From NCBI GenBank assembly GCA_023378865.1, contig JAMCSP010000019.1:1-52763 (forward strand): 52,763 nt of DNA, read 5' to 3'. This stretch comes from Candidatus Parvarchaeota archaeon (GTDB taxonomy: Archaea; Nanobdellota; Nanobdellia; Parvarchaeales; Parvarchaeaceae). This document shows, one piece after another, positions 4,126 to 30,616 of this stretch. Under the pieces are notes generated by a model, which was not told the DNA's origin, did not search any database, and was given only the letters and a program-made list of their open reading frames with translations. Every line of letters starts with the position of its first letter. The stretch's first letter is position 1. Both the position numbers and the translations under genes were made by a program.

Positions 4126-4644
4126 TTAAGGTTTATCCTGATTTGAAAATTTCCCGGAGTATTTTGCCTTTCCCTTTAGCTCTTCTAGTACTATTTGACA
4201 GATTTTGGTATTTGGCTTTATAGCAAGCGCTATTGGGGATAGATTAGCCATTTCCAGTACTATCTTTCCGGAAGTGCCTGGCTGCATAAAGCCGCTGCTT
4301 ATATGTGTTAGCAGCCCTAATCTCGCAAACCTTGACCTGCCGTCTATTCTGGCAGAGATATTCTGCGGAAGTGATATCCTTTCTATTGTTACTGCATGAA
4401 CTAATTCTCCAGGCTGAATGAGAAAACTTTCGCCCTTCTTTATCTTTATCTCTTCTGTCAGTTCCTTGTAATCTGTAGAATCATCAACTACAACCATTTT
4501 ATTTACCTTTTTGAACACTCTAAAAACATAACCTAACCTTAGATCAACAGATCCCGGGCCTATCTGCTCCCTATTTAATGGATCTATCTTTAATTCCTTG
4601 GAGTCCAGAAGCTTTATTATTTCATCGTGCGATAAAACCGCCAT
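4126..4644 (-). CDS. dcd: dCTP deaminase / dUTPase family protein
   Basis: Trimeric dUTPase-fold enzyme of pyrimidine deoxynucleotide metabolism. The family signatures are present: GPGSVDLRLG (residues 29-38), GRSRFARLGLLTH (102-114) and the SGKIVLEMAN stretch containing Glu131, the expected catalytic acid of deamination. The C-terminal YSGKF tail resembles the flexible nucleotide-covering arm. Length of 172 residues fits. One key residue differs: where E. coli Dcd and the Methanocaldococcus bifunctional enzyme have Asp in IDPG/IDAG, this protein has Gln121 (FMQPG). That makes dUTP hydrolysis doubtful and perhaps also deamination. The gene stands alone on the minus strand; an AT-rich 95-bp gap separates it from the giant gene. 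Confidence 0.85.
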   Translation of the reverse strand: MAVLSHDEIIKLLDSKELKIDPLNREQIGPGSVDLRLGYVFRVFKKVNKMVVVDDSTDYKELTEEIKIKKGESFLIQPGELVHAVTIERISLPQNISARIDGRSRFARLGLLTHISSGFMQPGTSGKIVLEMANLSPIALAIKPNTKICQIVLEELKGKAKYSGKFSNQDKP

Positions 4645-4739: not shown

Positions 4740-7700
4740 TTAAGAAACTGAAGCGTTAAACTCAACAGTAGGCATAACCCCGTTTGGAGGATAGGCACGG
4801 GTACGTAGCCAATAAACAGTCATACCGTTAGGTGCATAAGATGCTTCATTATTACCGACTTCTATTTCAAAAGGGAGACTTGCATTGTTTGATGCCCCTG
4901 TTATATACCCTGTATTATTTACATAATTTTGATATGTGTAATAAGTTGTATTTGTATATATCTGTGTCCAAACTGAAGCAGGATATTCGCTATTTTCATT
5001 TGGTAAGGTTCCTTGATTTTTAGTTCCACCTTGACTATTAGAAGGAGAAGCTTGAGAACTGACATTAACACCGCCCGGTGAACCTTCAAAATCAATTAAA
5101 GTATATGTTCCAGCAATATTAGGGCTGGCATCTGAACTTCCAGTGTAATTGCTAAATCCAGGCTCACTCCACCCCCAAACATCACCTTGGAAAGAAGTGG
5201 TTTGTGTTCCGTAGTAATCTACAATTATGGGAGCAGTGAAGGATGAAGAGGTATAAATACCATTCTCACCACCTTCTGATGTTGTGCCACCTTTAATAGT
5301 TACGCCATTGTTGACAGATACCGAACCATTCGAAGTTATACTGTTTATACCACTTGCCAGACTTGTTCCTGCAAAGTTCCAATAATTAGTGAATACGTTT
5401 GCACCATTATCATATTCTGCATATGTAGAGGAAAGCTGCGGTGCCTCACCAGTTGTATTATTGTTGAATAAGTTCGTAGTGTTGGAGGCAAATCCTATCG
5501 CTATGTCAGTCAAATTTGTATTTGCAGGTATACCATTCGGTAATTTTATCCAGAATATCGCATACTTTGAGTTATAACTTTCAAGCCAGCTGTCTATTAC
5601 CTTACCATTTGTAGTATTAAAGAATTCTACATTCTGGAATGCATAGTGCCCTGTTTTATTGATATACTTGCTGTTTGAGGAGTTTATAGTCATATTAATC
5701 ATCTGCTGGAACGGCTGTGAAGTAGTAGACTTTTGAGAGTTTATAATTTTTAATTTAATATACTTGTAAATACTTTTTGGTAATGGGCCTAATTTAGAAA
5801 AGTTTATAACTAATTTACCAAATGAAAATGTGTAACCAAAAGAAGAATTTGGAATATAAGTTGTATTTGAAATTGTTACATTGTTAATACTATAACTGTA
5901 ATTACCAAAACTACTTGCAATTTTTATCAAATTTGAGCTTGAATAATTTATTTTATTGCCGTATTTTACGGTCCAATTAGTACTAGTCGGAAGTCCCTCC
6001 TCCACAAATTCCTTTACGCATAACCAGTTTGAAAGGTTATCAGAAGTTCCCACTTCTGCAGTGCCATTTGATGAACAGTTTACACTAGATCCCGCAGAAT
6101 AGCTATAAATTCCTAAACCCGAGGAATTGAAGTTCATTTTTATCTCGCTTCCCGTTTTATTGCTCTTGTTTATTCCATCGTAATCAACCCACCAATTGCT
6201 GCCTTTAGGTAAGGTACTTTGATTGAAGGTAGTGGTACAGTTCCAGTTAGAAAGGAAGTATATATAACCTGCCTCTACTGTCTTTATCTTAGGAGTGCAA
6301 TCTAAAGAGGTATTTGCTTTGACAGTAAAGTTTCCTGGGGGTGTTGAAAAAGTAGATATTGACTTAGTAAATGAATAGTTACTTATGATTACAGAAGGCA
6401 TAACTCCGTTTGGTGGATATGAACGAACACGAAGCCAGTTTGCTGTATAACCCCCCGTATCAGAAGAAGACCCAGAAGCAGCTTGGCCTAGCATAATGTA
6501 TAAAGGAGTTGATAAAGAATTAGAGGTGCTTGATTCAGAGACAGTTTCCATGTTATTATAATTATAGTTAGGCACTATCTCCAATAATTGTGAACCTGTT
6601 GCCGTCCAAGCAATTCCTTCTATTATAGGAGCATTATAAGCTGTTTTACTATTAGCTATATCTGAGTATGAAGTAGTTAATATCTCAAACTGCATATCTC
6701 CTGAGTACATTCCATAGGACTGACCGTATCCATCCTCATACATATAAATCGGTTGCCCACCGTCTATCTGCGTATCACTTCTAGCAAGTTCTATTGTTGG
6801 GCGTGCATTAGAACCGCTTGTTATTCCTAATTCTAATATCCCTGCAGAACTGACAGCAGAGGTTGTTCCTATCGAAACGTAATTGTTATGACCATTGTTA
6901 GTAAAAGAAATTCCATTATCCCAAGTATAAGTATCTCCTGAGGAAGTAAGTTCCTGCCATCCTGAAGGTAACCCTGAACCTGCAAAATTCTCATAATAAT
7001 TGAATACATTAGCCCCGTCATCATATTCCGCATATGTTGGTGAAAGCTGTGGTGCTTCACCTGTTGTCTTATTATTGAATAAGCTTGTAGTGTTGGAAAC
7101 AAATCCTATCGCTATGTCAGTCAAATTTGTATTTGCAGGTATACCATTCGGTAATTTTATCCAGAATATCGCATACTTTGAGTTATAACTTTCAAGCCAG
7201 CTGTCTATTACACTGCCATTTGTAGTATTAAAGAATTCTACATTCTGGAATTCATGACCAGCAGCTAGATTTATGTACTTTCTGTATGCAGAGTAGGAGA
7301 AATTAACCATCTGCTGGAATGAGGCAGGTGTAGCTGAATTCTGATTATTATAAATCGAAACCAAAGCAATATGTGGAGCAGGATAGACTGATTTAGTTAT
7401 TCCATCATATGTTATGCTTAATGCCGAACTATTATAATACAACCCTGTTTCAGCAAAGGAAGTATTACAAAGCGTCGAATTCGAGAAGATTATGTTTTTA
7501 ATGTTGCCTGCTGACAAATATCCGGATGAAGGAGAAGGAGAATAAGTAGTAACACAATTTGAAGTAGAAGAGGAATTATGCAATGTTGGAACTAAATAAG
7601 AGTAATTGCCTCTTAATACAGTGAAATTTATTTCTGGGGTAATAGAATATTCATCTATGTTGTCATATATTACCGACCAATTATAATTAAGCGGAAGTCC

Positions 7701-10700
7701 TTGTTCCTCAAACTCCGTTACACAGAACCAGGTTGAAATATTGTCAGAAATACCCACAGCTGCAGTGCCATTTGATGAACAGTTTACACTAGATCCCGCA
7801 GAATAGCTATAAATTCCTAAACCCGAGGAATTGAAGTTCATTTTTATCCGATTTCCTGTGCTATTGCTCTTGTTTATTCCATCGTAATCAACCCACCAAT
7901 TGCTGCCTTTAGGTAAGGTACTTTGATTGAAGGTAGTGGTACAGTTCCAGTTAGAAAAGACATATGTAGATCCTGCTTCTACGTTTCTTGTCTGAGGATT
8001 ACAAGCTAGAGAGGTATTTGCTTTTATACTAAGGTTTCCAGATGAAGGGTATAAAGTTAATGCAGGTAAACTGGTTACATTTACTGTTGGCATTACTCCA
8101 TTTGGTGGGTAAGCAGCAATCGCATTCCAATATATATTAGCATATGAGCCAGTCAATCCGCTTGGAACATAGGTTAGATATGAAATGTATTCGGCAGAGT
8201 TTCCAGAGACGGTTAAAATCACGTTATTTATTCCATTTTGAAGACTTACATCAGATACATAGTACTCGTTACTGGAAGTGGGTGTTTCAGGGGTGGTAGC
8301 AGGCGCTTCATAAGTTATCCCTGCATAATTTATCTGATACTTTGAAACGCTATACGAATATACATAAGTCAAAAAGGTTAATGGAGTTTTAACAATAGAA
8401 GAAGGCAACATTGAGTAAAGTCCATAGAAATAGTTACCCCATGATGTCTGTGTATAACCCATATAGTCCTGTGAAAAGGAAACTGGCACGCCACCCAAAT
8501 TACTCCATCCGCTTGGCAATGCTGATAATCCGCCAAATCTTTGATAATAATTAAATATATCAGCACCATTATCGTATTCTCCATATGTAGGAGAAAGTTG
8601 CGGGGTTTCGCCTGTTGTTTGGTTGTTAAATAGGTTAGTGTATTTAGGTGCGAAGTAGATAGCTATGTCCTTTATAGTGGAATTAGCTGGTATTCCGTTT
8701 GGTAATTTAATCCAAAATATCGCATATTTAGATGTGTAATTCTCTAGCCATGAATCTATAACTTTACCACTTGTAAGATTCAAGAACTCAACATTCTGAA
8801 ATTCATGCCCCTGTGTAAGGTTTATGTACTGCTCATATGAAGGATATGATAAGTTTATCATCTGCTGGAATGGTGAAGGTGTTGCTACATCCTGGGCATT
8901 ATGTATGTAGACTAAGAAGACTTGCTTAATTTCACTAGTATTTCTCTTGTAAGTTATCTCGACTTTGGAGAAATTGTATATTCCTTTCTCTGAAATAGTA
9001 GTTTGACAAGCCGTTGAATTAGAAAATACAATGATCTGGGTATTACCCACTAAAAGATAGCCTGATGAAGGGAAAGGAGAATAGGTAGTAACACAATCTA
9101 AAGTAGAAGAAGAGTTATGCAATGTTGGAACTAAATAGGAATAATTGCCTACTACTGTAGTGAAATTTATTTCTGGGGTAATAGAATATTCATCTATGTT
9201 GTCATATATTACCGACCAATTATAATTAAGCGGAAGCCCTTGTTCCTCAAATCTAGTGATTGCAAGCGTTGAGTTAATAAGATTTGTGGGCATAACACCA
9301 TTTGGAGGTGCAGATGGAGAGTAATAATCAATAGGATTATTAGACCACAATGCAGTGTATGCACCACCGCCATCTTCAAAGTAATCCAATTCTATCCTCT
9401 GCGTTCCTATGTTTGAGATAGTACCTGAATAGGCAGTGAAACCTTCTGTATGCCATTCGCTTACTAAATTGTTTGGATTAGATGTTCCTCCAAGCCAGTA
9501 TTCTCCATTACCTCCATAAGCGGAAGTTGAGTAACCCAGTGCAATTCCGTCGTCTGATCCAACTGAAAAAGAAGTGGAGGAATTTACCTCTGCCCAGCCT
9601 ATCGCCTTTATTATCCAGGAATTTGCAGTGTTTGAAACAGGCGGATTTGGATATGCGGAACCTCCCGAGTAGCCCTCCTGGTAATTAATTACAACATTTG
9701 ATTCAGTAGTTCCATCAACATCCTGCGAACTGCCTAAAACCGGAGTATAAAATGGAGGGGTTGAAGAGGACATAGCGGCACATGAACTTATTGTTACACC
9801 GTTGTTTAAAGCGGCTGCATATACGTTGTTTTGATAACTGCCACTATCACAAGTTCCGCTTGAATCAAAGTAAATCTGGTACTCTAATCCTTTATTCATG
9901 ACGTTGCCTATATCGTCATATTCACCGTATATCGGTGAAAGTTGCGGCGCCTCCCCAGTGGTTCTGTTATTGAAATTATTTGAATAAGTAATAAGTGTCT
10001 GATTGAATATCATATCTATTGTGATGCCACTTTTCCCGGCAATACCTCCTATCCTAAGCCAGTATATCGTATCGCTAGAAGTATTTGAATTGCCGGATTC
10101 AACCCACGAGGGTATGACAGTTCCATTCTTGTATGTAAACATTATATTTGTCAAGCCGGAATTCTCGTATTTAGAGTATCTTGACGAGTTTATGCTTAGC
10201 ATCTGCTGGAATGGCGAAGGAGTTTCTATTGACTGATTATTATATATTGAGATAGGAATTATAACTGGCTTTCTATAAGCAAAGGTATCATTTGAGAATT
10301 TAACAGTAAAGTTTGAACCAACCTCTATATAAGAGCTTGAGATGTTAGGGGTAAACCCATAATTATAATGTACAGAAGGATAAATTTCAAAGCTATAATT
10401 CTTATTATAAGAAGTAGTAAACTCTATCGTATTTGATTTAGAAGACTGGTTATGACCAGCAAGATTTACCTCCCAAACATAGCCTGAAGGAAGGTTAACT
10501 TCGTTGAAATAAGTATGACATATGCTATTAAAGGTTATTGATATAGTTGAACCAGAAACTACATTGCCGCTTTCGGGTGACGGAATGAAACTACACTGCG
10601 ACTCATTTTTAACCTGCACAGAAAATGAAAAGGAAGAAAGAACAGAATCATTGAATGTCACATTCTTTCCAGTAGAAAAGTTTCTCATCCCATCGTATGT

Positions 10701-13700
10701 TACTGACCAGTTATAGTTCAAAGGCAAACCTGTTTCAGTGAAGGTTGTTACACAATAAGAAACTGAAAAGTTTATTTTGATACTTGATCCAGCAGCAATC
10801 TCTCCACCTGAGGGTGTTGGAATATATGCACAGCCAGATACAATTATTACAGGTATCGTGAAATTATACAGCCCTTTTGAGTTATTAAATGAGATATGGG
10901 TAGAAGTAGATGTATTAAATTTATTGTCAAAAGTAACATTCCACCCAGTACCGCTAGGCAAACCGGCCTCAGTGAAATTGGAGATACAATATCTTTCGGT
11001 AAATTTCACATAATTATATGAACCGGCTTCAGAATAGCCTTTCGATTCATTAGAAACAAAGTAACAATTATCATATTCTGATGTAGGAATAGAGAAAGAA
11101 TAATTGCCCTTTATAATATTGAAACCTATTTCTGATGAAACTGATGAATTTGTAATATTATCATAATCAACGGACCAGCTAACTCCAGAAGGCAAACCTG
11201 TCTCTATAAATTCCGAAGAGCAGTTAGTGGAAAAGCCAATTTTGGTCGTTGAGCCAGCGACTAGATAACCGCTGCTCATATTAGGCGTTAAATAGCAGTT
11301 AGCCGATACCTGTATTCTGGGGACTGAAAAGGAGAAATTACCATAAATTGAATCCACATCCAATGAAGTATTTGATGAATAGTTGGTTATGCCATCAAAT
11401 TTAACACTCCAAGTTATACCTTTTGATAGGCCAGTTTCATTGAATAAGGTTGCGCAGGAAGAGGAAAATGAAAGCAGCAATGAAGAGCCAGCTGCTATAT
11501 GACCGCTACTTGGATTAGGAGTAAAAACGCAGTTGTACTCTTTTACATTGTATGCAGTGAAATTAAAAGTTCCCGGAACTGTTGAAATCTGCAAAGAGGT
11601 ATTATCAGAACTGTAATTCACACCATTATATGTAAAGGTCCATTTACTATCCTTTGGAAGATTACTCACTGTAAATGTAGTATAACATTTCGTCTGATTA
11701 AATACTAAATAAGCCGTAGAACCGGCTGCAAGATTAGATGATCCATTTTCGGCAACATATAAACAATTATCTATTGTCAGATTTGGAACAGCAAATCTAT
11801 AAATGCCTGGCTGCGTGACTAATTGAATGCTTGTCGTTGTTGAACTGAAGTTTTCATTATCATATGTTAAATTCCATTCACTACCGGGTGGCAGACCATT
11901 TTCATAAAACGTAGTAGTGCATCCTCCACTATAGTTTATGGTTAAACTAGAGCCTGCCACTGCAATTCCGCTAGAAGGATTTGGACGATATGAACAGCTT
12001 GAATTGCCGATAAATGGTAAAGTATATGAATAACTACCATTTATGGATGGAACTTTTATAACGGTGCTGTTTGATGAAACGGTAGTGCCATTATATGTAA
12101 CAAACCAGTATTCACCGTTTGGCAAACCGGTTTCTGTAAACTTTGTGATGCACTTTGCCGTAAAATGAACATAAAAGAAAGCACCAGCAGCTGTACTGCT
12201 AGAAGAAGGTTGCGGTTCAAATATACAATTAGACATGTTTATTGAGTAAAATTTCGCAGCAAAAATGCCAGCAGGAGTTGTTATTGTAATATTGTTAGTT
12301 GAAGGACTTTCGGTTATGCCATCAAAAGTAAGCTTCCATTGTACCCCATCAGGTAAACCCGTTTCTATAAAAGTGGTATTGCAGTTATTCTCTACAAACG
12401 AGATATTCTTGTTTCCGCCTGCAGTAAGATAGCCTGAAGAAGGAGATGGAAGAAAAGAACAATACGAATAATCAACAGTCTTTACAGAGAAAGAAAAGTT
12501 TCCTGGAAGCGTAACAAAACTTATATTTGAGATACGGGATGAATTCGTACTTCCATTGTATACAACCGTCCATAGTGCGCCAGAAGGCAGACCATTTTCT
12601 AAAAACGTTGAAATACATTCTTTTGTATAGGATATTTTAGAAGACTTTCCTGATACTAAATAGGCAGATCTGGGTTTTGGATAGTAAAAACATCCTGAAT
12701 TGATAGGAACTACACTAGAAACATATGAATGATTGCCTGGAGAAGCGTATATAACTATAGTATCATTGTAAGAGCTGCTTGAAACTCCATCAAAAGTAAC
12801 ATCCCACTTAGTATTGCTAGGAAGACCTGTTTCATTAAACAATGTTTTACATGCATTTGTATAAGTTATTAGAACTGAAGAACCAACTGTGGCAGTTCCA
12901 TTTCCAGAACTAATATTGATATGACAACCTTGTTCTGAGATGCTATTAGGTCTTATATAATAATTATATGTATTAGTAGAAAATGAATTATTGAAAGTTA
13001 TCTCAGAGGAAGAGGAAGATTCTAAGAGATTGTTAAAAGTAACATTCCACTGCGTATTGCTAGGAAGACCTGTCTCCTTGAATGTAGTAAGGCAGAATTT
13101 TCCTATAAAATTAACATTAAGAACTGAAGAGGTATTAATTGTTCCTTGCGTCACATTGGAAACATAGAAACACCCATTGCTCTCTGCTGTAAATATTTTA
13201 AAATTGTACACACCAATTTGAGTTAAGAATAAAATTTGATTTGAATCAGAAGAAGCATTTATCCCATCAAAATAAACTTTCCATTGCGTGTTACTGGGTA
13301 AACCAGTCTCTTTAAAGTAAGTAACACAATCATTTTCAAAAACTATTGACAGGTTATCACCAGGCGTTATGTAACCTGAGGAAGGCTGGGGCTTGTATGA
13401 GCATGAACTGCTTATTGGAATGCTTTTCACGTTATAAGGATTAGCAGAGGAATTTGAAGAGTTAACTATTATTTTGTTTGAGTAAGAGGAATAAAGAGTA
13501 TAAGCGTAGATAGCCTGAGGAATAGGTAAATTATAATCAAAATAACTCGGATAAGAGTAATTTACCTCCCATTTAATACCGTTTGGCAAGCCAGTCTCCG
13601 TGAAAATTGTTCTACATGCCGCAGTAAAATGCACTGTAAATGAAGAACCTGCCATTATTTCACTACTATAACTAGCAGAGAAGACACATCCGTTAATCTT

Positions 13701-16667
13701 TATTGGAGTTATATAGAGTGAATAATTTCCAGGCTTAGTAACAACTGAAGTATAATTCTTTACGGAGAAGTTAGTAATATTATTAATTGATATACTCCAA
13801 TTTGTATTAACTGGTAAACCTGTTTCGGTGATGTTAGATATACATGAAACTGGAGAGAATTGAATTGTTGTATTGCTTCCAGAGATAAGATTTCCACTTG
13901 AATTTAATGAATCAAAAAGACAACCCCTACCGGCAGTGTTCTTTATTTCATAAGAATAATTACCAGGAAAGTTTAATATAGACAAATTATTTTTATTGCC
14001 AGAAACGGTTGTTCCATCATAGGTTACTGACCAGTATACATTTTTGTATAAACCTTTCTCATAAAATGTAGATATACATTTTTCAATGTAGTTTACGGTT
14101 AACGCTGTACCTGCAGTATTATTTCCGCTTATTGGCTGTGGTATAAAGTAACAATTTCCTCCCGCACTTACATTGCTTATGACAAATGGAAAAGTACTGT
14201 ATCTTGTTTTTATCGATATTAATGTACCTATAGATGAATTCGTTTTTCCACCGTAATTTACCTGCCACAAACTACTAACAGGCAAGCCTTTTTCATAGAA
14301 ATCTGTGTAACATAAACTATTAAAGCCGATATTAACAACAGATCCTGCTTTTACCGTTCCAACTGATTCATTCGGTGAAAAAACGCATGTTCCAAGAGTG
14401 ATCTTTCCCACTGAAAACGTGTAATTTCCTGGAAAATTACTGAAAGATATGGAGCTTGTCTGAGAATCTAAAGTACTGCCATTAAACACCACTTGCCATG
14501 ATGTGCCTGAGGGTAAGCCTGCTTCTGCAAAAACTGTATCACATGTAGTAAGGTTAAATGTTACATGTATATTATTACCAACCTCTGTTGATCCTGATGT
14601 AACATTCGGTGCATAGTTACAACCTTTATAGCTTGTCTGAGGTATTTGATAATAATACTTTCCCTGTGGGAGAAGAAACGACATGTTAGGATTTATGGAA
14701 TGTTTAGTTACAGCCGCAAAGGTAACAGTCCAGTTGGCTCCAGAGGGTAAACCCGGATCTATGAAACTTGTTATACAGCTATCTGTAAACGAAACTGTTT
14801 CATTAGAGCCTGCAACCACATTTCCAGAAGAAGGGGAAGGAATATAGTAGCAATCTTTGCTGATAGGTATTGAAGGGATTGAAAAGTTATAGGAACCATT
14901 TATAGTATTGAAGTTTAAACTCGTAATAGTTGAAGATTTTGTGATATTGTCAAAGGTTACGTTCCAATTTGTGTTATTAGGCAGACCTGTCTCTGCAAAC
15001 TCAGTACCACATTCTCCAGAAAAGCGTATTCTTTGCAGACTTCCAGCTAGGATACTTCCATTTTCTGGATTTGGAGTGAAGGTACAGTTGCCTACCCTTA
15101 TAGTTGATACATTGAATGAAAAGGTTTTTCCTTTATAGTAAGGGAACTCTATGGAAGAGTTAAATGCACCGTCCCTTATCTGATTATCGTAATCAACGGA
15201 CCAGCTAACTCCAGAAGGCAGACCATTAGAAACAAATACAGTATGACATGTCTGTGAAAAATATATAGAAATGGAAGAACCTGCTGTTAAATTTCCAGTT
15301 GAAGGTACGGGGGAATACACACATCCGCCATTGGTTGAATTTGAAACCGAGAATACGGTGGAGATATTAGATGTATTGAATTTTATTACGTTTGCAGTAG
15401 ACTGTAGTGCTTTATTACCGTACTTTACACTCCAGTTAATCCCTATAGGAAGATTTTTTTCAGAGAAGGTAGTGATACAGCTGGGGGAGAATAGAACGGA
15501 AATTGAAGATCCTGCAATAATTGGGTTAGGTAGATTTATAGTGGGATTAAAAGTACAGTTACCTATTGTTACGCTTGATACACTCAGATTGCTTAGTGAG
15601 TAGTTTGTATCTATACTCAAAAAGAAAGAAGATGAACGCTCTATTTTATTGTCGTACTCAGCACTCCATGTTGTACTGTTTGGCAACCCTTCTTCACTAA
15701 TAGTTGTATTGCATGAAGAGTTAAATGTTATAAGAATGTTCCCGCCGGCAGTTGAATTTCCATTTTCCGGACTAGGGGTAAAAATACAATTGTTCTTTTT
15801 AATAATTGAGACATTAAATATGGGGATTAAGGAAGCATTTTTTACAGGAATAAAAACGATCTGCGTTAAATTTGAAGTAGTTGTAATATTGTCATATTTT
15901 ACTGTCCAGTTATAACCTGAGGGTAAACCGGTTTCCAAAAAGGTCACTTTATTTGATTTAGAACTGCATGTTGTGAAGAAGATTATAGACTTAGAAGAAC
16001 CCGCATTTACATATCCAGACTGCGGATAAGGATAGTAAGGGCAGCCGTTATATGCTGAATCCGACACTGAAAAAGGATAGTCTCCATATGTAGATATGAA
16101 GTAAGTCGAATTAGTATTTGCATTCCTTGAAACGTTATCATAAGTTATCGTCCAGTTTATATGGTTGGGCAGACCGTATTGATTAAAAGTAGTATTACAA
16201 ATCGCAGAAAACGAAATGTAAATAGAAGAGCCTGCAGTTATTGTACCAGATTTGGAGGTAGGCAAGAATATACAGCCACCAAAGAAAACTTTGTTGACTT
16301 TGAAGGAGAAGTTTTTAAGAAATGAAGAATAATTCAAATAATTTGCATTTGAATATAATACGCCAGAAGGAAGCGAAATTGACCAAATCGAGTTGACAGG
16401 TAATCCTGACTCGTAAAAAAGAGTGTATTTCGGCACAGGAATCGATTTGGTGCTATTTGTAGTATTTACTGGCGGAGTAACACTTATGTTATTTGGTGGC
16501 GTTATGGTTATGGGTTTTAGTCCGAATAACTTTGCAAGATTAAAATTCAAAAAGCCGGGGATAGTACTTAAAAAGAATAGAATAATAAGGAGTATAGAAA
16601 GCACCACAATAAAAGTAGTAAAGTGGATTTTATAGCTTTTCTTTTCAGGTGGTTCAATAAGTCTCAT
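4740..16667 (-). CDS. Giant secreted surface protein: tandem cysteine-bearing repeats plus four DUF2341-type modules
   Basis: A 3,975-residue protein anchored by an N-terminal helix (residues about 17-39) behind a basic start, so almost all of it lies outside the cell. Residues about 75-2127 form about 26 tandem repeats of 75-95 residues. The consensus is F-x-E-x-GLP-x-G-x-x-W-x-V-x-Y-D, then a Cys before a P-x-P-SSG turn, then AGS and a second Cys ending the repeat. Two cysteines per repeat suggest disulphide-locked beta domains. Modules of DUF2341 type (PFQQM ... YW-I-KLPNGIPA ... GEAPQLS-YGEYD ... NGVMP) start near residues 2128, 2585, 3100 and 3636. The first carries a PA14-like insert (SDDG, then a LDYFEDGG stretch). 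About five more repeats lie between modules. N-x-S/T sequons are very dense, suggesting heavy glycosylation. The likely role is cell-surface adhesion or an S-layer component. No C-terminal anchor is present. Confidence 0.88.
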   Translation of the reverse strand: MRLIEPPEKKSYKIHFTTFIVVLSILLIILFFLSTIPGFLNFNLAKLFGLKPITITPPNNISVTPPVNTTNSTKSIPVPKYTLFYESGLPVNSIWSISLPSGVLYSNANYLNYSSFLKNFSFKVNKVFFGGCIFLPTSKSGTITAGSSIYISFSAICNTTFNQYGLPNHINWTITYDNVSRNANTNSTYFISTYGDYPFSVSDSAYNGCPYYPYPQSGYVNAGSSKSIIFFTTCSSKSNKVTFLETGLPSGYNWTVKYDNITTTSNLTQIVFIPVKNASLIPIFNVSIIKKNNCIFTPSPENGNSTAGGNILITFNSSCNTTISEEGLPNSTTWSAEYDNKIERSSSFFLSIDTNYSLSNLSVSSVTIGNCTFNPTINLPNPIIAGSSISVLFSPSCITTFSEKNLPIGINWSVKYGNKALQSTANVIKFNTSNISTVFSVSNSTNGGCVYSPVPSTGNLTAGSSISIYFSQTCHTVFVSNGLPSGVSWSVDYDNQIRDGAFNSSIEFPYYKGKTFSFNVSTIRVGNCTFTPNPENGSILAGSLQRIRFSGECGTEFAETGLPNNTNWNVTFDNITKSSTITSLNFNTINGSYNFSIPSIPISKDCYYIPSPSSGNVVAGSNETVSFTDSCITSFIDPGLPSGANWTVTFAAVTKHSINPNMSFLLPQGKYYYQIPQTSYKGCNYAPNVTSGSTEVGNNIHVTFNLTTCDTVFAEAGLPSGTSWQVVFNGSTLDSQTSSISFSNFPGNYTFSVGKITLGTCVFSPNESVGTVKAGSVVNIGFNSLCYTDFYEKGLPVSSLWQVNYGGKTNSSIGTLISIKTRYSTFPFVISNVSAGGNCYFIPQPISGNNTAGTALTVNYIEKCISTFYEKGLYKNVYWSVTYDGTTVSGNKNNLSILNFPGNYSYEIKNTAGRGCLFDSLNSSGNLISGSNTTIQFSPVSCISNITETGLPVNTNWSISINNITNFSVKNYTSVVTKPGNYSLYITPIKINGCVFSASYSSEIMAGSSFTVHFTAACRTIFTETGLPNGIKWEVNYSYPSYFDYNLPIPQAIYAYTLYSSYSNKIIVNSSNSSANPYNVKSIPISSSCSYKPQPSSGYITPGDNLSIVFENDCVTYFKETGLPSNTQWKVYFDGINASSDSNQILFLTQIGVYNFKIFTAESNGCFYVSNVTQGTINTSSVLNVNFIGKFCLTTFKETGLPSNTQWNVTFNNLLESSSSSEITFNNSFSTNTYNYYIRPNSISEQGCHINISSGNGTATVGSSVLITYTNACKTLFNETGLPSNTKWDVTFDGVSSSSYNDTIVIYASPGNHSYVSSVVPINSGCFYYPKPRSAYLVSGKSSKISYTKECISTFLENGLPSGALWTVVYNGSTNSSRISNISFVTLPGNFSFSVKTVDYSYCSFLPSPSSGYLTAGGNKNISFVENNCNTTFIETGLPDGVQWKLTFDGITESPSTNNITITTPAGIFAAKFYSINMSNCIFEPQPSSSSTAAGAFFYVHFTAKCITKFTETGLPNGEYWFVTYNGTTVSSNSTVIKVPSINGSYSYTLPFIGNSSCSYRPNPSSGIAVAGSSLTINYSGGCTTTFYENGLPPGSEWNLTYDNENFSSTTTSIQLVTQPGIYRFAVPNLTIDNCLYVAENGSSNLAAGSTAYLVFNQTKCYTTFTVSNLPKDSKWTFTYNGVNYSSDNTSLQISTVPGTFNFTAYNVKEYNCVFTPNPSSGHIAAGSSLLLSFSSSCATLFNETGLSKGITWSVKFDGITNYSSNTSLDVDSIYGNFSFSVPRIQVSANCYLTPNMSSGYLVAGSTTKIGFSTNCSSEFIETGLPSGVSWSVDYDNITNSSVSSEIGFNIIKGNYSFSIPTSEYDNCYFVSNESKGYSEAGSYNYVKFTERYCISNFTEAGLPSGTGWNVTFDNKFNTSTSTHISFNNSKGLYNFTIPVIIVSGCAYIPTPSGGEIAAGSSIKINFSVSYCVTTFTETGLPLNYNWSVTYDGMRNFSTGKNVTFNDSVLSSFSFSVQVKNESQCSFIPSPESGNVVSGSTISITFNSICHTYFNEVNLPSGYVWEVNLAGHNQSSKSNTIEFTTSYNKNYSFEIYPSVHYNYGFTPNISSSYIEVGSNFTVKFSNDTFAYRKPVIIPISIYNNQSIETPSPFQQMLSINSSRYSKYENSGLTNIMFTYKNGTVIPSWVESGNSNTSSDTIYWLRIGGIAGKSGITIDMIFNQTLITYSNNFNNRTTGEAPQLSPIYGEYDDIGNVMNKGLEYQIYFDSSGTCDSGSYQNNVYAAALNNGVTISSCAAMSSSTPPFYTPVLGSSQDVDGTTESNVVINYQEGYSGGSAYPNPPVSNTANSWIIKAIGWAEVNSSTSFSVGSDDGIALGYSTSAYGGNGEYWLGGTSNPNNLVSEWHTEGFTAYSGTISNIGTQRIELDYFEDGGGAYTALWSNNPIDYYSPSAPPNGVMPTNLINSTLAITRFEEQGLPLNYNWSVIYDNIDEYSITPEINFTTVVGNYSYLVPTLHNSSSTLDCVTTYSPFPSSGYLLVGNTQIIVFSNSTACQTTISEKGIYNFSKVEITYKRNTSEIKQVFLVYIHNAQDVATPSPFQQMINLSYPSYEQYINLTQGHEFQNVEFLNLTSGKVIDSWLENYTSKYAIFWIKLPNGIPANSTIKDIAIYFAPKYTNLFNNQTTGETPQLSPTYGEYDNGADIFNYYQRFGGLSALPSGWSNLGGVPVSFSQDYMGYTQTSWGNYFYGLYSMLPSSIVKTPLTFLTYVYSYSVSKYQINYAGITYEAPATTPETPTSSNEYYVSDVSLQNGINNVILTVSGNSAEYISYLTYVPSGLTGSYANIYWNAIAAYPPNGVMPTVNVTSLPALTLYPSSGNLSIKANTSLACNPQTRNVEAGSTYVFSNWNCTTTFNQSTLPKGSNWWVDYDGINKSNSTGNRIKMNFNSSGLGIYSYSAGSSVNCSSNGTAAVGISDNISTWFCVTEFEEQGLPLNYNWSVIYDNIDEYSITPEINFTVLRGNYSYLVPTLHNSSSTSNCVTTYSPSPSSGYLSAGNIKNIIFSNSTLCNTSFAETGLYYNSSALSITYDGITKSVYPAPHIALVSIYNNQNSATPASFQQMVNFSYSAYRKYINLAAGHEFQNVEFFNTTNGSVIDSWLESYNSKYAIFWIKLPNGIPANTNLTDIAIGFVSNTTSLFNNKTTGEAPQLSPTYAEYDDGANVFNYYENFAGSGLPSGWQELTSSGDTYTWDNGISFTNNGHNNYVSIGTTSAVSSAGILELGITSGSNARPTIELARSDTQIDGGQPIYMYEDGYGQSYGMYSGDMQFEILTTSYSDIANSKTAYNAPIIEGIAWTATGSQLLEIVPNYNYNNMETVSESSTSNSLSTPLYIMLGQAASGSSSDTGGYTANWLRVRSYPPNGVMPSVIISNYSFTKSISTFSTPPGNFTVKANTSLDCTPKIKTVEAGYIYFLSNWNCTTTFNQSTLPKGSNWWVDYDGINKSNKTGSEIKMNFNSSGLGIYSYSAGSSVNCSSNGTAEVGTSDNLSNWLCVKEFVEEGLPTSTNWTVKYGNKINYSSSNLIKIASSFGNYSYSINNVTISNTTYIPNSSFGYTFSFGKLVINFSKLGPLPKSIYKYIKLKIINSQKSTTSQPFQQMINMTINSSNSKYINKTGHYAFQNVEFFNTTNGKVIDSWLESYNSKYAIFWIKLPNGIPANTNLTDIAIGFASNTTNLFNNNTTGEAPQLSSTYAEYDNGANVFTNYWNFAGTSLASGINSITSNGSVSVNNGVTIKGGTTSEGGENGIYTSSSFTAPIIVDYYGTQTTSFQGDVWGWSEPGFSNYTGSSDASPNIAGTYTLIDFEGSPGGVNVSSQASPSNSQGGTKNQGTLPNENSEYPASVWTQIYTNTTYYTYQNYVNNTGYITGASNNASLPFEIEVGNNEASYAPNGMTVYWLRTRAYPPNGVMPTVEFNASVS
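5489..5600 (-). repeat. 112-bp exact repeat (copy 1; copy 2 at 7100-7211)
   Basis: These 112 bases recur without mismatch at 7100-7211, an offset of 1,611 bp (537 codons). Both lie in the conserved core of DUF2341 modules 4 and 3, coding for the YNSKYAIFWIKLPNG region. Similarity continues less perfectly on both sides. Confidence 0.9.
6056..6253 (-). repeat. Near-exact 198-bp repeat (copy 1; copy 2 at 7760-7957)
   Basis: 6056-6144 equals 7760-7848 and 6158-6253 equals 7862-7957 exactly, both at an offset of 1,704 bp. Only the short stretch between them differs. The copies encode the TLPKGSNWWVDYDG repeat units that precede the third and fourth DUF2341 modules. They indicate recent duplication or gene conversion. 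Confidence 0.9.
7620..7697 (-). repeat. 78-bp exact repeat (copy 1; copy 2 at 9159-9236)
   Basis: These bases recur exactly at 9159-9236 (offset 1,539 bp). They encode the GLPLNYNWSVIYDNIDEYS type repeat unit found before DUF2341 modules 2 and 3. The different offset from the other pairs shows that several separate duplication or conversion events happened here. Confidence 0.9.
10290..16445 (-). repeat. Tandem protein-repeat array (about 26 units) in the giant gene
   Basis: The 5' half of the giant gene encodes about 26 consecutive units of roughly 225-285 bp. They are clearly related at protein level (GLPxGxxWxVxYD, CxFxPxPSSG, AGS, terminal C) but strongly diverged at DNA level. The array is therefore old, unlike the near-identical blocks in the 3' half of the gene. 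Confidence 0.85.
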
Positions 16668-16737: not shown

Positions 16738-17496
16738 ATGAAAATACTATCCTGGAATGTAAATGGACTAAGAAGCGTTGCAAGAAAAAACGAAATACAA
16801 AAGATAATAAATTCGCAGATTTATGATGTAATACTCCTGCAGGAAACTAAAATTGAAGAAGCAAGCAGTATAATAAAAACAGACCAATACCTGCAGTACA
16901 TTATGCCTTCCAGCAGTAAAAAGGGGTACAGCGGAGTAATGACAATGTGCAAGAGCAAGCCCCTTAACGTTATCTACGGAATCGGAAATGAAAGATACGA
17001 TAAAGAAGGGAGGGTTATAACTGTAGAATTTAGCAACTACTTTGTAATAAACAGCTATTTTCCTAATTCCAGGAGGGATCTGAGCAGGCTAGATTATAAA
17101 ATAGGATTCAACGAAGAGATGCTTGAATTTATGGAAAAACTGAGAAATAAAAAACCGATAGTAATAGGCGGGGATTTCAATGTTGCACACACTGAAATAG
17201 ATATAGCTAGGCCTAAACAAAACGAAGGAAATGCTGGTTTTACTATGCAAGAGAGGAAATTCATTGATAAACTTGTAGGAAAAGGATACATTGATACATT
17301 CAGACTATTCAACAAAGAAGGAGGAAATTATTCATGGTGGACTTATTTATACAAGAGCGCAAGGAAAAATAATATTGGATGGAGGATAGACTATTTCTTT
17401 GTATCCGATGAATTGAAAAATAAGGTAAAAGCAGCAGGTATACTTGAAAAGCAGGAAGGATCAGATCATGCACCAGTATTTGTAGAAATCAATTAA
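16738..17496 (+). CDS. xth: Exonuclease III / AP endonuclease
   Basis: Metal-dependent AP endonuclease of base-excision repair. All family signatures are present: WNVNGLR with Asn7, LQETK with Glu36, GGDFNVAH with Asp146 and Asn148, the WRIDYFF motif with Asp218, and GSDHAP with Asp243/His244. Length of 252 residues is typical. It diverges from the giant gene across a 70-bp AT-rich gap that must carry both promoters, and its last 4 bp overlap the convergent KaiC-like gene. Together with nth and the PolX gene in this window it could supply a short base-excision repair path. Confidence 0.95.
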   Translation: MKILSWNVNGLRSVARKNEIQKIINSQIYDVILLQETKIEEASSIIKTDQYLQYIMPSSSKKGYSGVMTMCKSKPLNVIYGIGNERYDKEGRVITVEFSNYFVINSYFPNSRRDLSRLDYKIGFNEEMLEFMEKLRNKKPIVIGGDFNVAHTEIDIARPKQNEGNAGFTMQERKFIDKLVGKGYIDTFRLFNKEGGNYSWWTYLYKSARKNNIGWRIDYFFVSDELKNKVKAAGILEKQEGSDHAPVFVEIN

Positions 17497-23691: not shown

Positions 23692-25272
23692 CTATTCATC
23701 AAATTTAGGGCCTTCTCCGTCGTTAGACTTGGAGATCTTAGATCCATCGCTTTCTATTGTTAAAGGAGTGCCATCAGAATCCATAGTCTGAAGTTCTACA
23801 GGTATTTTCCACATCTTTGAAAGCCTGCGCAATGACGCTGCTGTATAATTATTGTCAAGACTGAACATCTGCGATGCCTGTTCTTCAAAGCTTTCTCTTT
23901 CCTCCTCGGATAATTTTCCTATGTACCTTTTAAGAAAGCTCAGATCCTGCCTTAAAGTAAGTTTATTGCCATTAAAACTACCCTTAGGAACATACACCAT
24001 GGGTCCGTAATTCTCCGTCTCCAAAAGAAGCTGAAAACGCAGTATATTAGGATCCAGTTTTGAGCTGTTTGCAGCTTTTATCATGTCTATTATGTATTCT
24101 GGATATTTTCCGCCGTAAAGATTGTCTATCATCATATTGGTCTTTTCCTCTATCTCCTTTACCAGGGACTTGAAAAAGTTGAGATCTGCATATGAAAATA
24201 TAAATTCCCAATCGGTGTAGGATTTCGTTATCTCCAAAATTTCAGATAAACCCTTATTTTCCTTCTTCATATAAGTTCTTTTTTCTTCTTCTGAAAGTAA
24301 ATCATAAAGCATACCGTGCCTGCCTTCATCCCACCTCTTCTCTATGTCTTTAAACAGCCTAAAACCAAGGTAGTAAGGCAGCTGTGCAGGAGACAATACA
24401 TCAGCTACTTCCAGTATTCCTTTTCTCATCTTGAATGCCGTATCTATATCATACTTTGCCACTTCTTCTGCATACTTGTCCTCAACAAAAGTTGCAAAAC
24501 CTTCATGCATTATTTTTATTCTTGCACCCTTCATAAGCTGATTTATATCATATACGATTTCAAGCAGCTCCTTTTCCCAGGGATTAAATCTTACATTTTC
24601 AAGCGTAAACTTGTAAACATCATATATGTCTTCTTCCGGGTAAATCTGCTCCTTGCTGTAATAATCATTCTTTTTACTCCTGTGAAAATCGGGAAACATG
24701 TCAATCAGTCCGCTTAATGTCTGCGAGTAATCATACATTTTTTCCACGGTTTTTATATCAAGTCTGCCCTCCATCTCCCTGTATCTATCTCTGTAGTAAG
24801 CATGCTTATCTGAATTAGCAGTTATGCTTTTTGCAAGCCTGTTATTGTATTCTATGTGTAAATGTCCATAAACGTGGGCCATTACACTTAATACCTCGTC
24901 ATAAGTGTCATTTTGGTTTATGTAAACTGCAGTATATTCCTCTCTCTTAATAGGGTCATAGAATTTATGTCCAACCATCTCATATAAGACTCCCTGCCTG
25001 TACTTCATATTATTCTCCTGTATTATTTTCTCCTGTCCTGCTTCCCACGTTGGAAGAGGTGTACCATAAAGAGCTACCTTTTCTGCAAACTCTTCATTAT
25101 CCAGTATCTTAAATTCTACATTTCCAAATGAAAGGCCAAGCTTATTTACCATAAATGAAGCTATCTTTCTTGCTTCTGCAGTGTATTTTTCGTCTATTAT
25201 AGAGCCATGTGTGGCTATTATATCTATTTCTTTCCCATCTACCAACAACTTTTCAAGGGATTTCTTTGCCAT
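23692..25272 (-). CDS. spoVR: SpoVR family protein
   Basis: 526 residues, last gene of the PrkA/YeaH/SpoVR operon, 1 bp after the YeaH gene. Family hallmarks are the histidine motif MAHVYGHLHIEYNN (His133, His137) and HEGFATF (His256-Glu257), the local form of the usual N-E-G-W-A-T motif. Both look like a buried metal site, though the biochemical activity of SpoVR is not established. Known relatives are Bacillus SpoVR (spore cortex) and E. coli YcgB, always found with PrkA/YeaG and YeaH. The C-terminal 25 residues are acidic and low complexity. No membrane segment. Confidence 0.9.
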   Translation of the reverse strand: MAKKSLEKLLVDGKEIDIIATHGSIIDEKYTAEARKIASFMVNKLGLSFGNVEFKILDNEEFAEKVALYGTPLPTWEAGQEKIIQENNMKYRQGVLYEMVGHKFYDPIKREEYTAVYINQNDTYDEVLSVMAHVYGHLHIEYNNRLAKSITANSDKHAYYRDRYREMEGRLDIKTVEKMYDYSQTLSGLIDMFPDFHRSKKNDYYSKEQIYPEEDIYDVYKFTLENVRFNPWEKELLEIVYDINQLMKGARIKIMHEGFATFVEDKYAEEVAKYDIDTAFKMRKGILEVADVLSPAQLPYYLGFRLFKDIEKRWDEGRHGMLYDLLSEEEKRTYMKKENKGLSEILEITKSYTDWEFIFSYADLNFFKSLVKEIEEKTNMMIDNLYGGKYPEYIIDMIKAANSSKLDPNILRFQLLLETENYGPMVYVPKGSFNGNKLTLRQDLSFLKRYIGKLSEEERESFEEQASQMFSLDNNYTAASLRRLSKMWKIPVELQTMDSDGTPLTIESDGSKISKSNDGEGPKFDE

Positions 25273-25273
25273 A

Positions 25274-26353
25274 TCAATTTAAAAGAGTATCAAGAACTTT
25301 TTTCACATTTCCGTAAGAAATATCATTGCCGGATTTTACCTCATTTACTTTTTCTCTGTCGACTGCTTTTATCAGTTTATAAAAGCCATCAGAATCGCTT
25401 CCAACCTGCAAGTAAAATACTTTTGTAAGCCGGGGAAACAGCTTTTTAAGTGTATTGTAAAGTTTGCCATTGTCATCTGCATTCTCTCCGTCAGTTATAT
25501 GAAGCAGGAAAACATCCTCTGATTCATAGTCTACTCTTTCTTTGTATGGCGACATTGAAGGATATGCACTGCTCTCTGTCATATCCGTAACCAATTTGTA
25601 GGCCGGCTCAAATGAAGTTCCACCGCTAGCAACGAGCTTGTAAAAATCCTCCTTTTTACGCGGATCGAATTCGAACGCCTCATCGGTATGTGCCAGATAT
25701 CTTATTTTGACAGTGTCTTCATATTTTTGTCTAAGCCAGAACTCTATCAAACCTGCAATTGTGGCAGAAAATTCTCCGTATGTGTCCATAGATCCGCTTA
25801 CATCTCTCATTATAATAAACGTAGCTGATAAATTTGGAATTAGTTTTTCTTCAATAAAGTTATAACGCATGTCCTCTTCTCTTACATCCACCTTGAAGCC
25901 ATTCTTTTCGAAATAACCTGTCGCCATCTGTCTATCAAGCATAGCTTCTATGGTTTTTTCCTGGTTTTCATCCACGCCATTCTCGGCAGTCAGCAGCCTA
26001 TAGAGCTTTTTATCCTTCTTCCCTGGCTTAGAAAAAGAAAGTCCCCAATTTTCCATCATTTGCTTGAGCCTTCTCTTGTCTACACCTACTTTTACCTTTG
26101 AATTGTCACCGTTACCGCCTTTTCCTTCATTGCCTTCTCCGTCATCCCCTTCGCCATCGCCATCTCCTTCTCCTTCGCCATTGCCGCCCAACCCATTGTA
26201 GGATATTGTCGGATTTATCTTAACAGGTATTGTCTTTATAACGGTTTTACCGTCATTTATATCCCGTATATCCGTAGAAGTAAGTATAAGGTCATCTTCC
26301 TCGTCTATTTTTTTCCTGTATTTGTCTTCTGCATCACCCAATTCACTGGTCAT
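25274..26353 (-). CDS. yeaH: YeaH-like VWA-domain protein (DUF444 family)
   Basis: A 359-residue partner of PrkA-type ATPases. A von Willebrand A domain starts near residue 175 with a full MIDAS motif, RDVSGSM (Asp184, Ser186, Ser188), and further ligands around GGTSFEP and HITDGEN. The N-terminal part has a Gly/Glu/Asp-rich linker (about residues 54-84), as seen in YeaH proteins. The protein is shorter than the usual 420 or so residues. The ATG at 26353 lies 11 bp inside the end of the upstream AAA gene, so translation is coupled. AAA ATPase plus VWA protein pairs (MoxR-VWA, RavA-ViaA, PrkA-YeaH) commonly act as chaperone or metal-insertion machines. Confidence 0.88.
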   Translation of the reverse strand: MTSELGDAEDKYRKKIDEEDDLILTSTDIRDINDGKTVIKTIPVKINPTISYNGLGGNGEGEGDGDGEGDDGEGNEGKGGNGDNSKVKVGVDKRRLKQMMENWGLSFSKPGKKDKKLYRLLTAENGVDENQEKTIEAMLDRQMATGYFEKNGFKVDVREEDMRYNFIEEKLIPNLSATFIIMRDVSGSMDTYGEFSATIAGLIEFWLRQKYEDTVKIRYLAHTDEAFEFDPRKKEDFYKLVASGGTSFEPAYKLVTDMTESSAYPSMSPYKERVDYESEDVFLLHITDGENADDNGKLYNTLKKLFPRLTKVFYLQVGSDSDGFYKLIKAVDREKVNEVKSGNDISYGNVKKVLDTLLN

Positions 26354-28163
26354 AGAACAAAGTCCCCTCCTTGTATATTTTTAATGCTTCTTCTACGGCC
26401 TCATCGAAATAGCCGCGCTTCACAGTTAGAAAATTCTTTATGTAAGGATACAGTTCAGAGTTCCTGTCTATGTCTTTTCCAGATTCTCCAATAAAGTTCT
26501 TAAATTTATTTTCTGTTTTTATGAAGTCTTTGCCGGTAGACACCAGAAAATGCAGAAGATCCTCGAATTTCGTTTTGTAATTTACTATCCCTAGAGGAAC
26601 TTTTTTAAATTTAAATGCACTTATCTGGTTTTTCAATCCGTCTACATCAAAGTATCTGCCTGCTTCTGTAAGATATCCCTCTGTATCCTTAAATTCCTGT
26701 GATTGTTTTGCTGAAATCATTGAATCCACATATTCTGAGATAGCATTTGCGTAATCATTGAAATGCTCACCGAAATAAAATGAAAGCAACGCATAATCTA
26801 TCTCAAAATCCACATCGTTTGTTATAATTGAATCTATGTAGCCTTTTATTTTGTGGTATGCCTGCTCATCTATTTTTTCCTCATTTTTATAGATATAGCT
26901 TGCTATGTCAGAAAACAGAAGAGAATCTCTCGATTTATTTGAGGCGTAATTAAAATCAAGTATGCTGCTTATTGACCTTGACGATATACCAGAGGTCCAC
27001 CCGCTCTTATACTCATTAGAATTGTATATTATGCCATGTGCTGCATCCTTTATGTACCTGTTTTCTTCAAGGTCCTTCTTGGAAACGTAAGAGCTATAAT
27101 CCGGAAGCAGCTTACTTAGAAAATTCGACATAGACTGTGTCATCTTCTTTTCAAACTCTTTTAGATTCGAGGAATCGTAGTAATCAAGCAATTCCAAGAT
27201 GTTTTCTATTCTTTCATTGTCTCCGCTAATAATTTCCTCGCTGTCGATTCTAGACAGAACATTTAATTTAGCAAGATAATCCAAAAAATGTGGCACCATA
27301 TTCTTAACTGGTATTTTAGATTCCTCAGCAAGCTTTATTTCCTGGGAATACGAAAGATTACGCCTTACATTAACCTTTATTATTCTTTCAAGCAGCGGTC
27401 TCGACTCTCTTTTTTGTTCCTCATCCAGTTCCATAAAAGTCTCATTGCTGTGCATTATTATCAAACTATCGAGCGGAATCCTGTTTCCCATCGGATCAGA
27501 GAAATTATTGTCATAGATGTTGTTTAAAAGTTGGAAGACCTTTGGATTGATGCCTTCCAATCTGCTTTTATCTGCACTTATAGTTAAAATTGACCTGTTT
27601 GAATTTACTATCACACCCATAAAAGATGGAAGAAGAAAGCTGTCGCCAAACTCAACTATTGAGGACTGCGGAAAGACCCTGTCCAATTTTATTTTTTCAG
27701 GGCTTATTTTTCCATTTTCTATGATACTTTCTAGGTTGCGCTCACATTGATAGCAGATATCTGGCCTTTTGTGGTTAGTTACATTGTCTGAACCGTCCTT
27801 TTCTAGGTCTATTGGCAGTATGGACCTGTAAAGATTATAAGGATTTTCATTGTAATGGCATTTTGTACCGTTTATATTCAATGTGAACATTTCATTTGAC
27901 ATTGAATACTTTTTATATGCCCTTACGATGCTGTTTATGATTTCAGTCTTACCGCTACCGCTTGGGCCTATCAACAACAGTATAGGAGTATACCCCTGTC
28001 TTGAAATGAAAGAGGCCTGTTCCAAGGCGTTCATAAGGTTTTCCTTCACGTCTTTTATCCCGTATATGTCATTAAATGCATTTTCAGTGATTATGCTTTT
28101 CCTGACACGGTCTACAGTGCTTTCTTCCTTTTCAACCAGGCCTTCAAGGCCGACGCTACCCAT
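26343..28163 (-). CDS. PrkA-type AAA ATPase / putative serine kinase, second paralogue
   Basis: 606 residues. Walker A is GPSGSGKT (66-73), preceded by the IYGIKDVKENLM element of PrkA proteins. A PrkA-specific insert holds Cys/His residues (KCHY, then RPDICYQCERN), a possible zinc site. The FLLPSFMGV and SNRSILTISAD stretches correspond to pore loop and Walker B regions, although a classical DE Walker B is not obvious. SNETF fits sensor 1. The C-terminal half is helical and matches the PrkA C-terminal region only in general form. It starts 9 bp after the first paralogue. Whether it is a kinase, an unfoldase or both is unresolved in the family. Confidence 0.82.
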   Translation of the reverse strand: MGSVGLEGLVEKEESTVDRVRKSIITENAFNDIYGIKDVKENLMNALEQASFISRQGYTPILLLIGPSGSGKTEIINSIVRAYKKYSMSNEMFTLNINGTKCHYNENPYNLYRSILPIDLEKDGSDNVTNHKRPDICYQCERNLESIIENGKISPEKIKLDRVFPQSSIVEFGDSFLLPSFMGVIVNSNRSILTISADKSRLEGINPKVFQLLNNIYDNNFSDPMGNRIPLDSLIIMHSNETFMELDEEQKRESRPLLERIIKVNVRRNLSYSQEIKLAEESKIPVKNMVPHFLDYLAKLNVLSRIDSEEIISGDNERIENILELLDYYDSSNLKEFEKKMTQSMSNFLSKLLPDYSSYVSKKDLEENRYIKDAAHGIIYNSNEYKSGWTSGISSRSISSILDFNYASNKSRDSLLFSDIASYIYKNEEKIDEQAYHKIKGYIDSIITNDVDFEIDYALLSFYFGEHFNDYANAISEYVDSMISAKQSQEFKDTEGYLTEAGRYFDVDGLKNQISAFKFKKVPLGIVNYKTKFEDLLHFLVSTGKDFIKTENKFKNFIGESGKDIDRNSELYPYIKNFLTVKRGYFDEAVEEALKIYKEGTLFYDQ

Positions 28164-28172
28164 AAATCAGAC

Positions 28173-30383: not shown

Positions 30384-30616
30384 ATTACTCAACCCCCAGT
30401 ATATATAGGAAGGTATATCCTTTATATACTTTTTCTTCAAAAAATTCTAAATTTTCACTTAGATTTTTAATAAAATTTACAAATTTTACGCTAAAGTACC
30501 GCATAAAACCGCTGTTTTTTACTTTTACCATATCCATTTTTCACCTTCGATTTTTATAAGATTATATGATAGTAACCATGTGGAAATTAAATAAAAAAAT
30601 TAGATTTTAATCGCCG

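Follow-up and report, generated by a model that had tools for sequence, protein, structure and literature searches.

The window, meaning the whole stretch of DNA that was analysed (52,763 nucleotides), corresponds to contig 19 of a genome that comprises 807,505 bases, is split into 35 contigs and is 91% complete. It contains a giant gene coding for 3,975 amino acid residues without an internal stop, which takes up 22.6% of the window. A preliminary description made from the sequence had reported a protein of this length at this position, occupying over a fifth of the window in a probably very small genome and built from about 26 two-cysteine repeats and four DUF2341-type modules. Its reading of the gene agrees with ours, and the repeat count can now be made exact: there are 26 tandem repeats, 25 of them with two cysteines, whereas the last one (R26) has none. 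The Pfam model DUF2341 (PF10102) indeed matches four stretches (42.1 bits for the whole protein against a gathering threshold of 23.4, E-value 1.2e-10), although module 1 on its own scores 18.3 bits and stays under that cut-off.

Comparisons were made within a set of 28 genomes of the genus, including the genome of the window (G000). A scan of the genome collection with the single protein found two close relatives only, TL2-4.bin18 and MAS3.bin171, both metagenome bins labelled "Nanoarchaeota archaeon". The features of the locus are as follows, the parts of the protein being given from its N-terminus onwards.

16738..17496, plus strand: exo/endonuclease/phosphatase family gene, right flank; borders the site that is empty in genomes G035 and G029
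4740..16667, minus strand: giant gene, ATG start at 16667
16557..16625, minus strand: N-terminal membrane anchor, residues ~15-37 (hydropathy; kept in all orthologs)
10287..16427, minus strand: stalk of 26 tandem repeats of ~78 residues, residues 81-2127 (repeat profile, orthologs, model)
10287..10517, minus strand: repeat R26, final stalk unit, without cysteines (repeat profile, orthologs)
9924..10286, minus strand: module 1, conserved DUF2341 half (Pfam, ortholog comparison)
9288..9923, minus strand: module 1, exchangeable half, PA14 lectin-like, with an Asp-Asp-Gly motif and its own cysteine pair, C2273/C2296
9006..9260, minus strand: repeat R27, two cysteines (repeat profile)
8559..8957, minus strand: module 2, conserved DUF2341 half (Pfam, module comparison)
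8088..8558, minus strand: module 2, exchangeable half, hypervariable, ConA-like by sequence pattern only
7722..8060, minus strand: two variant repeat units, cysteine pairs 19-20 residues apart
7467..7721, minus strand: repeat R28, two cysteines, 82% identical to R27 (repeat profile)
7008..7385, minus strand: module 3, conserved DUF2341 half (Pfam, module comparison)
6396..7007, minus strand: module 3, exchangeable half, 85% identical to module 3 of genome G039
6018..6350, minus strand: two variant repeat units with cysteine pairs
5787..6017, minus strand: repeat R29, without cysteines (repeat profile)
5397..5765, minus strand: module 4, conserved DUF2341 half, 90% identical to module 3 in DNA over 277 nt
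4770..5396, minus strand: module 4, exchangeable half, the C-terminal tip
4126..4644, minus strand: dCTP deaminase, left flanking gene; borders the site that is empty in G035 and G029

The anchor is the sole convincing hydrophobic segment of the giant protein by hydropathy, and the basic stretch KKSYK ahead of it suggests a cytoplasmic N-terminus. Elsewhere in the window (positions 23692-30440), SpoVR, DUF444 and two PrkA-like proteins are encoded consecutively in this very small archaeal genome; this arrangement is best known from bacteria.

The stalk and its repeats

The stalk repeats are ~77-79 residues long, apart from one of 95, and follow the consensus xTxFxExGLPxGxxWxVxYDGxTxSS...GxYxFxI...CxFxPxPSSGxxxAGSxxxIxFxxxC. 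Every one of them scores 65-97 bits against a profile derived from the array, and all 64 cysteines of the protein fall in pairs; thus, the array cannot be attributed to chance. Beyond the stalk, the three further repeats R27, R28 and R29, together with shorter variant units, lie between the DUF2341 modules. When 41 three-repeat stretches were compared with Pfam, the best match of the 78-residue repeat was to an all-beta domain of pullulanase (E-value 0.0012, six members). The repeat has no match in NCBIfam, no sequence relative in PDB by profile search and none in phage and plasmid records, and within the phylum it is restricted to this family except for one marginal match (12 of 279 genomes). 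It represents a protein family without a curated Pfam or NCBIfam model.

An AlphaFold model of repeats 22-24, for which 41 stretches from orthologs and neighbouring repeats served as input, is an all-beta sandwich with a mean pLDDT of 94.6 and no residue below 70. In this model the last strand of one repeat continues as the first strand of the next, strands 69-85 and 146-163 spanning the boundaries. The repeats are therefore predicted to be ordered beta-sandwiches, not the disordered segments that would have refuted the preliminary description, and with the continuous strand this supports the rod proposed there. Foldseek searches place the model nearest to Gram-positive pilins and multi-domain surface proteins (best E-value 1e-8), and the matches include giant adhesins (6fwv, 7vcr, 5irb, 9fls); since the TM-scores are low (0.2-0.35), we assign a fold class and not a family.

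The two cysteines of a stalk repeat are 24-26 residues apart. R27 and R28 carry such a pair, R29 lacks it, and in the shorter variant units the spacing is 19-20 residues. Counted over the genus, 304 repeats divide into 284 with both cysteines, 16 with neither and four with one (Fisher p ~1e-22), and at least two of these four do not look like true repeats by eye. Within the giant protein and its orthologs the counts are 180, 13 and zero. The cysteines of R26 are both present in the ortholog of genome G031 and both absent in four other orthologs. The array opens with a first cysteine and closes with a second one, and repeats without one cysteine are also without the other (R26, R29), which favours pairing inside the 25-residue interval over pairing between repeats. 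The membrane thiol oxidase VKOR is found in 26 of the 28 genomes, with two copies in this one. On these indirect grounds each cysteine-bearing stalk repeat appears to be closed by one disulphide, as the earlier idea of a disulphide-clipped rod had it. That the cysteines instead bind metal or anchor another cofactor seems very improbable: there are just two per repeat, their spacing ranges over 18-33 residues with pairing kept, one paralog has its first cysteine moved by several residues with the partner still in place, and VKOR is present. The second, divergent VKOR of this genome (G000:C25:211-594) shares a contig with two other cysteine-repeat proteins of 1,764 and 1,125 codons.

The stalk is recognizable in seven of the 28 genomes, this one included, a count that fragmented assemblies lower. 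Over the N-terminal 709 residues, the six other orthologs are 83, 72, 72, 71, 51 and 46% identical to the protein of the window. All six complete stalks, this one included, contain exactly 26 repeats. Compared between species, the repeats find their best matches at their own positions in 26/26, 26/26, 26/26, 24/26 and 23/26 cases and in 21/21 cases for the truncated seventh stalk, and within one protein the best match among repeats averages only ~41% identity. Repeat 13 is long in all orthologs. No tandem repeat is detectable in the stalk array at the DNA level, so the constancy does not come from assembly collapse or recent unequal crossing-over. Other repeat proteins of the genus differ in count, for example from four to six in a second giant family. 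Repeat number commonly drifts in adhesins; it is unusual among them for a long tandem array to keep one count, here exactly 26 units even at ~50% sequence identity. The stalk of G031 is nearer to that of the window than the stalk of G013 is (51% against 46%), yet PolX places G031 further away (67%, compared with 81% for G013), and whole-gene transfer is a possible origin of the G031 ortholog.

The DUF2341 modules and their heads

Each module consists of a conserved half, which ends in GEAPQLSPxYxEYDD, and an exchangeable half (the head), which ends in PPNGVMP. The number of modules at the tip is four in G000, five in G039, four in G037, six in G031 and five in G013. Using sequence clusters and reading of the sequences, we assigned the exchangeable halves to three types: PA14 lectin-like, hypervariable (ConA-like in sequence pattern) and a third type. 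The third type is cysteine-rich (...ENYTSCGxFF...GGGSCGPGGF...), occurs in module 2 of G037, G031 and G013, and is absent from the window.

Comparisons of module 1 show that heads are exchanged. Its conserved half in G000 is 70-81% identical to those of G039, G037, G013 and G002, whereas the exchangeable halves differ in kind: G000 and G039 have a PA14-like one, and G037, G013 and G002 have one of an unrelated type. Conversely, the G000 head shares 85-88% identity with heads at unrelated loci of G035, G036 and G004, as against 52-54% for the conserved halves there, and 80% with a head elsewhere in the G013 giant, as against 34% for the conserved half (head and conserved half pair by pair: 88/54, 88/53, 85/52 and 80/34%). 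Identity changes abruptly at the border between DUF2341 and head and again just past PPNGVMP. Between G000 and G036, the holder of the 85% head, identity in the housekeeping protein PolX is no higher than 66%; the head therefore moved more recently than the species split. At the DNA level, the DUF2341 halves and the R27/R28 pair of the giant gene amount to repeats 269-300 nt long and 71-90% identical, which offer ready material for homologous recombination. We also considered a target of a diversity-generating retroelement and rejected it: the genome (91% complete) has no RVT_1 reverse transcriptase, and the heads differ as whole domains.

The model comprising R26, the DUF2341 half and the head of module 1 is of moderate confidence (pLDDT 74.8). 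Most of the best Foldseek matches of module 1 are PA14 lectins (the yeast adhesins Epa and Flo, MpPA14 and the PA14 domain of another RTX adhesin), with a probability of 1.00, E-values of 1e-5 to 1e-3 (about 1e-5 to 1e-4 for Epa, Flo and MpPA14) and TM-scores of 0.4-0.55 when normalized by target length. A profile search independently reaches the structure of RsgI3 (E-value 0.009), which is also on the Foldseek list. The Pfam PA14 profile matches neither the giant protein at E-values up to 1 nor any of 22 members at E-values up to 0.1. Thus, the PA14-like module of the preliminary description is borne out by structure comparison and weakly by the profile match to RsgI3, but not by Pfam. An Asp-Asp pair is kept in 19 of 19 PA14-like head cassettes. 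In MpPA14, a DcisD motif is the binding site for calcium and sugar diols (PMC8092209), and we infer by analogy that the Asp-Asp of the heads may be its equivalent. The head of module 1 is predicted to be a PA14-type, probably calcium-dependent sugar-binding lectin; should the habitat be very acidic, its aspartates may bind calcium only weakly. While the Epa, Flo and MpPA14 lectins, which belong to the PA14/Flo5-like group, are the structures closest to module 1, whose conserved Asp-Asp may correspond to the DcisD of MpPA14, module 1 differs from them in lying under Pfam detection and in its extra conserved parts and N-terminal DUF2341 half.

The hypervariable heads of modules 2-4 have a mean column identity of 28% between their fixed ends. 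In Pfam, one member matched Cleaved_Adhesin weakly (E-value 0.005), and sequence profile searches of PDB gave nothing useful, so the label ConA-like conveys an impression of pattern. Of the glycan-binding tip envisaged in the preliminary description, module 1 is the part that gains support, from the Foldseek lectin matches and the invariant Asp-Asp, whereas for modules 2-4 such a role is plausible.

Distribution within the genus and resemblance to known systems

G035, a close relative (PolX 94% identical), lacks the gene at an otherwise intact locus, where the dCTP deaminase and exo/endonuclease genes are 195 bp apart with nothing between them. In G029 the same two genes are ~130 bp apart, and in G031 the giant gene is at another locus. 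In a tree built from three flanking genes, G035 falls among the carriers (support 83-96), which makes loss likelier than late gain. Its absence from the intact locus of so close a relative means that the lifestyle of the genus does not as such depend on the giant gene. The contigs of G007 and G009 end ~350 bp from the exo/endonuclease gene, exactly at the expected start of the giant gene.

The giant protein contains 195 N-glycosylation sequons, compared with 99 ± 8 in shuffled sequences, and nine other proteins of the window are without such an excess. The oligosaccharyltransferase family STT3 (PF02516) was undetected in this genome and was found in only seven of the 28. Most of the genus also encodes a second giant surface protein of ~2,900-4,000 residues, which carries four to six of the same cysteine repeats close to its C-terminus (contig C10 of this genome; loci L078, L091-L098 and L100) and may be the core envelope protein. 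Its copy in G009 is without any Pfam match.

The giant protein is most likely a giant modular adhesin, a known kind of protein, and it is notable for combining a constant stalk with swapped heads. With RTX adhesins such as MpAFP of Marinomonas primoryensis and AhLap of Aeromonas hydrophila, it shares N-terminal retention at the cell, tandem beta-sandwich extenders followed by distal domains of ligand-binding type (as judged from predicted folds) and a predicted PA14 sugar-binding head. AhLap has 28 highly similar extender domains and presents its ligand-binding domains from companion "split" domains (PMC12077191), much as the DUF2341 halves would present the heads here. MpAFP has roughly 120 identical repeats (PMC4083281), whereas the stalk repeats described here are diverged and fixed in count. 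Unlike RTX adhesins, the giant protein is archaeal, has an N-terminal membrane helix, carries cysteine pairs (presumed disulphides) in place of calcium in the stalk and uses DUF2341 as a platform for heads exchanged across loci. The calcium-binding nonapeptide repeats that define RTX proteins have no Pfam match in the whole protein, and we therefore do not class it as an RTX adhesin.

The nanohaloarchaeal SPEARE proteins are likewise giant membrane-anchored repeat proteins of small DPANN genomes, patchily distributed among relatives, with Ig-like repeats and a proposed role in host contact (PMC10266531). They are 8,880-9,409 residues long and combine some 75 Ig-like domains with a VirB4/TraG-like ATPase domain (PMC10266531). 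The latter has no Pfam match in the whole giant protein, and the likeness to SPEARE drawn here is one of architecture.

Pilins and surface proteins of Gram-positive bacteria (PitA, BcpA, TIE) provide the best structural matches of the stalk repeat and also have covalently locked stalk domains. Isopeptide bonds form the lock in many of them, in contrast to the putative disulphide of the giant protein, where we also saw no C-terminal sortase motif; the TM-scores of these matches are low.

Proposed function

The genus is presumably Candidatus Parvarchaeum or one close to it, DPANN archaea of acid mine drainage for which dependence on a host has been predicted (PMC10134863). In our view the giant protein is likely a membrane-anchored surface adhesin, in which a rigid stalk of fixed length carries swappable lectin heads that grip a partner cell. 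The N-terminus would be held in the membrane, and the 26 beta-sandwich repeats, with one disulphide each and joined by a shared strand, would make up a stiff stalk of fixed length. Past the stalk, each of the four heads would consist of a conserved DUF2341 platform presenting an exchangeable domain. The stalk would keep the heads clear of the cell surface and so free to attach to glycans of a partner cell, which is most likely the host archaeon. The stalk stays constant among related species while their heads are exchanged; in this reading, DUF2341 modules at this locus recombine with one another and with those at other loci, both inside a species and across species, and a change of head would retune the binding range of the cell.

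Of the other roles considered, the most credible, to which we give a modest chance, is self-adhesion or biofilm formation, with the heads binding glycans of sister cells, matrix or mineral-bound polymers instead of a host. PA14 lectins of RTX and yeast adhesins do act in flocculation and biofilm (PMC8092209). Head exchange between species, on the other hand, suggests changing targets and would seem to fit recognition of a partner or host better. A structural envelope protein, part of a coat resembling an S-layer or cell wall in which DUF2341 makes lattice or glycan contacts among subunits of the same cell, would agree with a highly repetitive beta protein rich in cysteines and sequons and with the many paralogous repeat proteins of the genome (89 repeat matches on nine contigs). 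We find this unlikely, as a lattice protein should be core, yet the gene is missing at the intact locus in G035 and G029, the heads differ between close species, and the second repeat-bearing protein of ~3,000 residues, present in most members of the genus, is a better candidate.

Least of all do we expect a protein that captures or scavenges polysaccharides, holding extracellular polymers for uptake. One PA14 relative in PDB is a domain of RsgI3, and PA14 domains also occur in glycosidases. RsgI3 comes from the clostridial anti-sigma factors that sense polysaccharides. But the giant protein has no catalytic domain according to Pfam, its immediate neighbourhood contains no glycosidase or transporter, and a long conserved stalk would be unnecessary for capture.

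Returning to the adhesin, we can extend the proposal more speculatively to a receptor-binding system, in which the disulphide-stapled stalk would serve as a ruler and lectin heads passed between species by way of the DUF2341 frame would set the host range, by analogy with the exchange of phage tail fibres; we hold this to be possible, though somewhat doubtful. With a constant stalk, variable heads and the gene naturally deleted in a near relative, the poorly understood question of how ultra-small archaea select and keep their hosts can be put as a concrete hypothesis of host specificity that is open to test.
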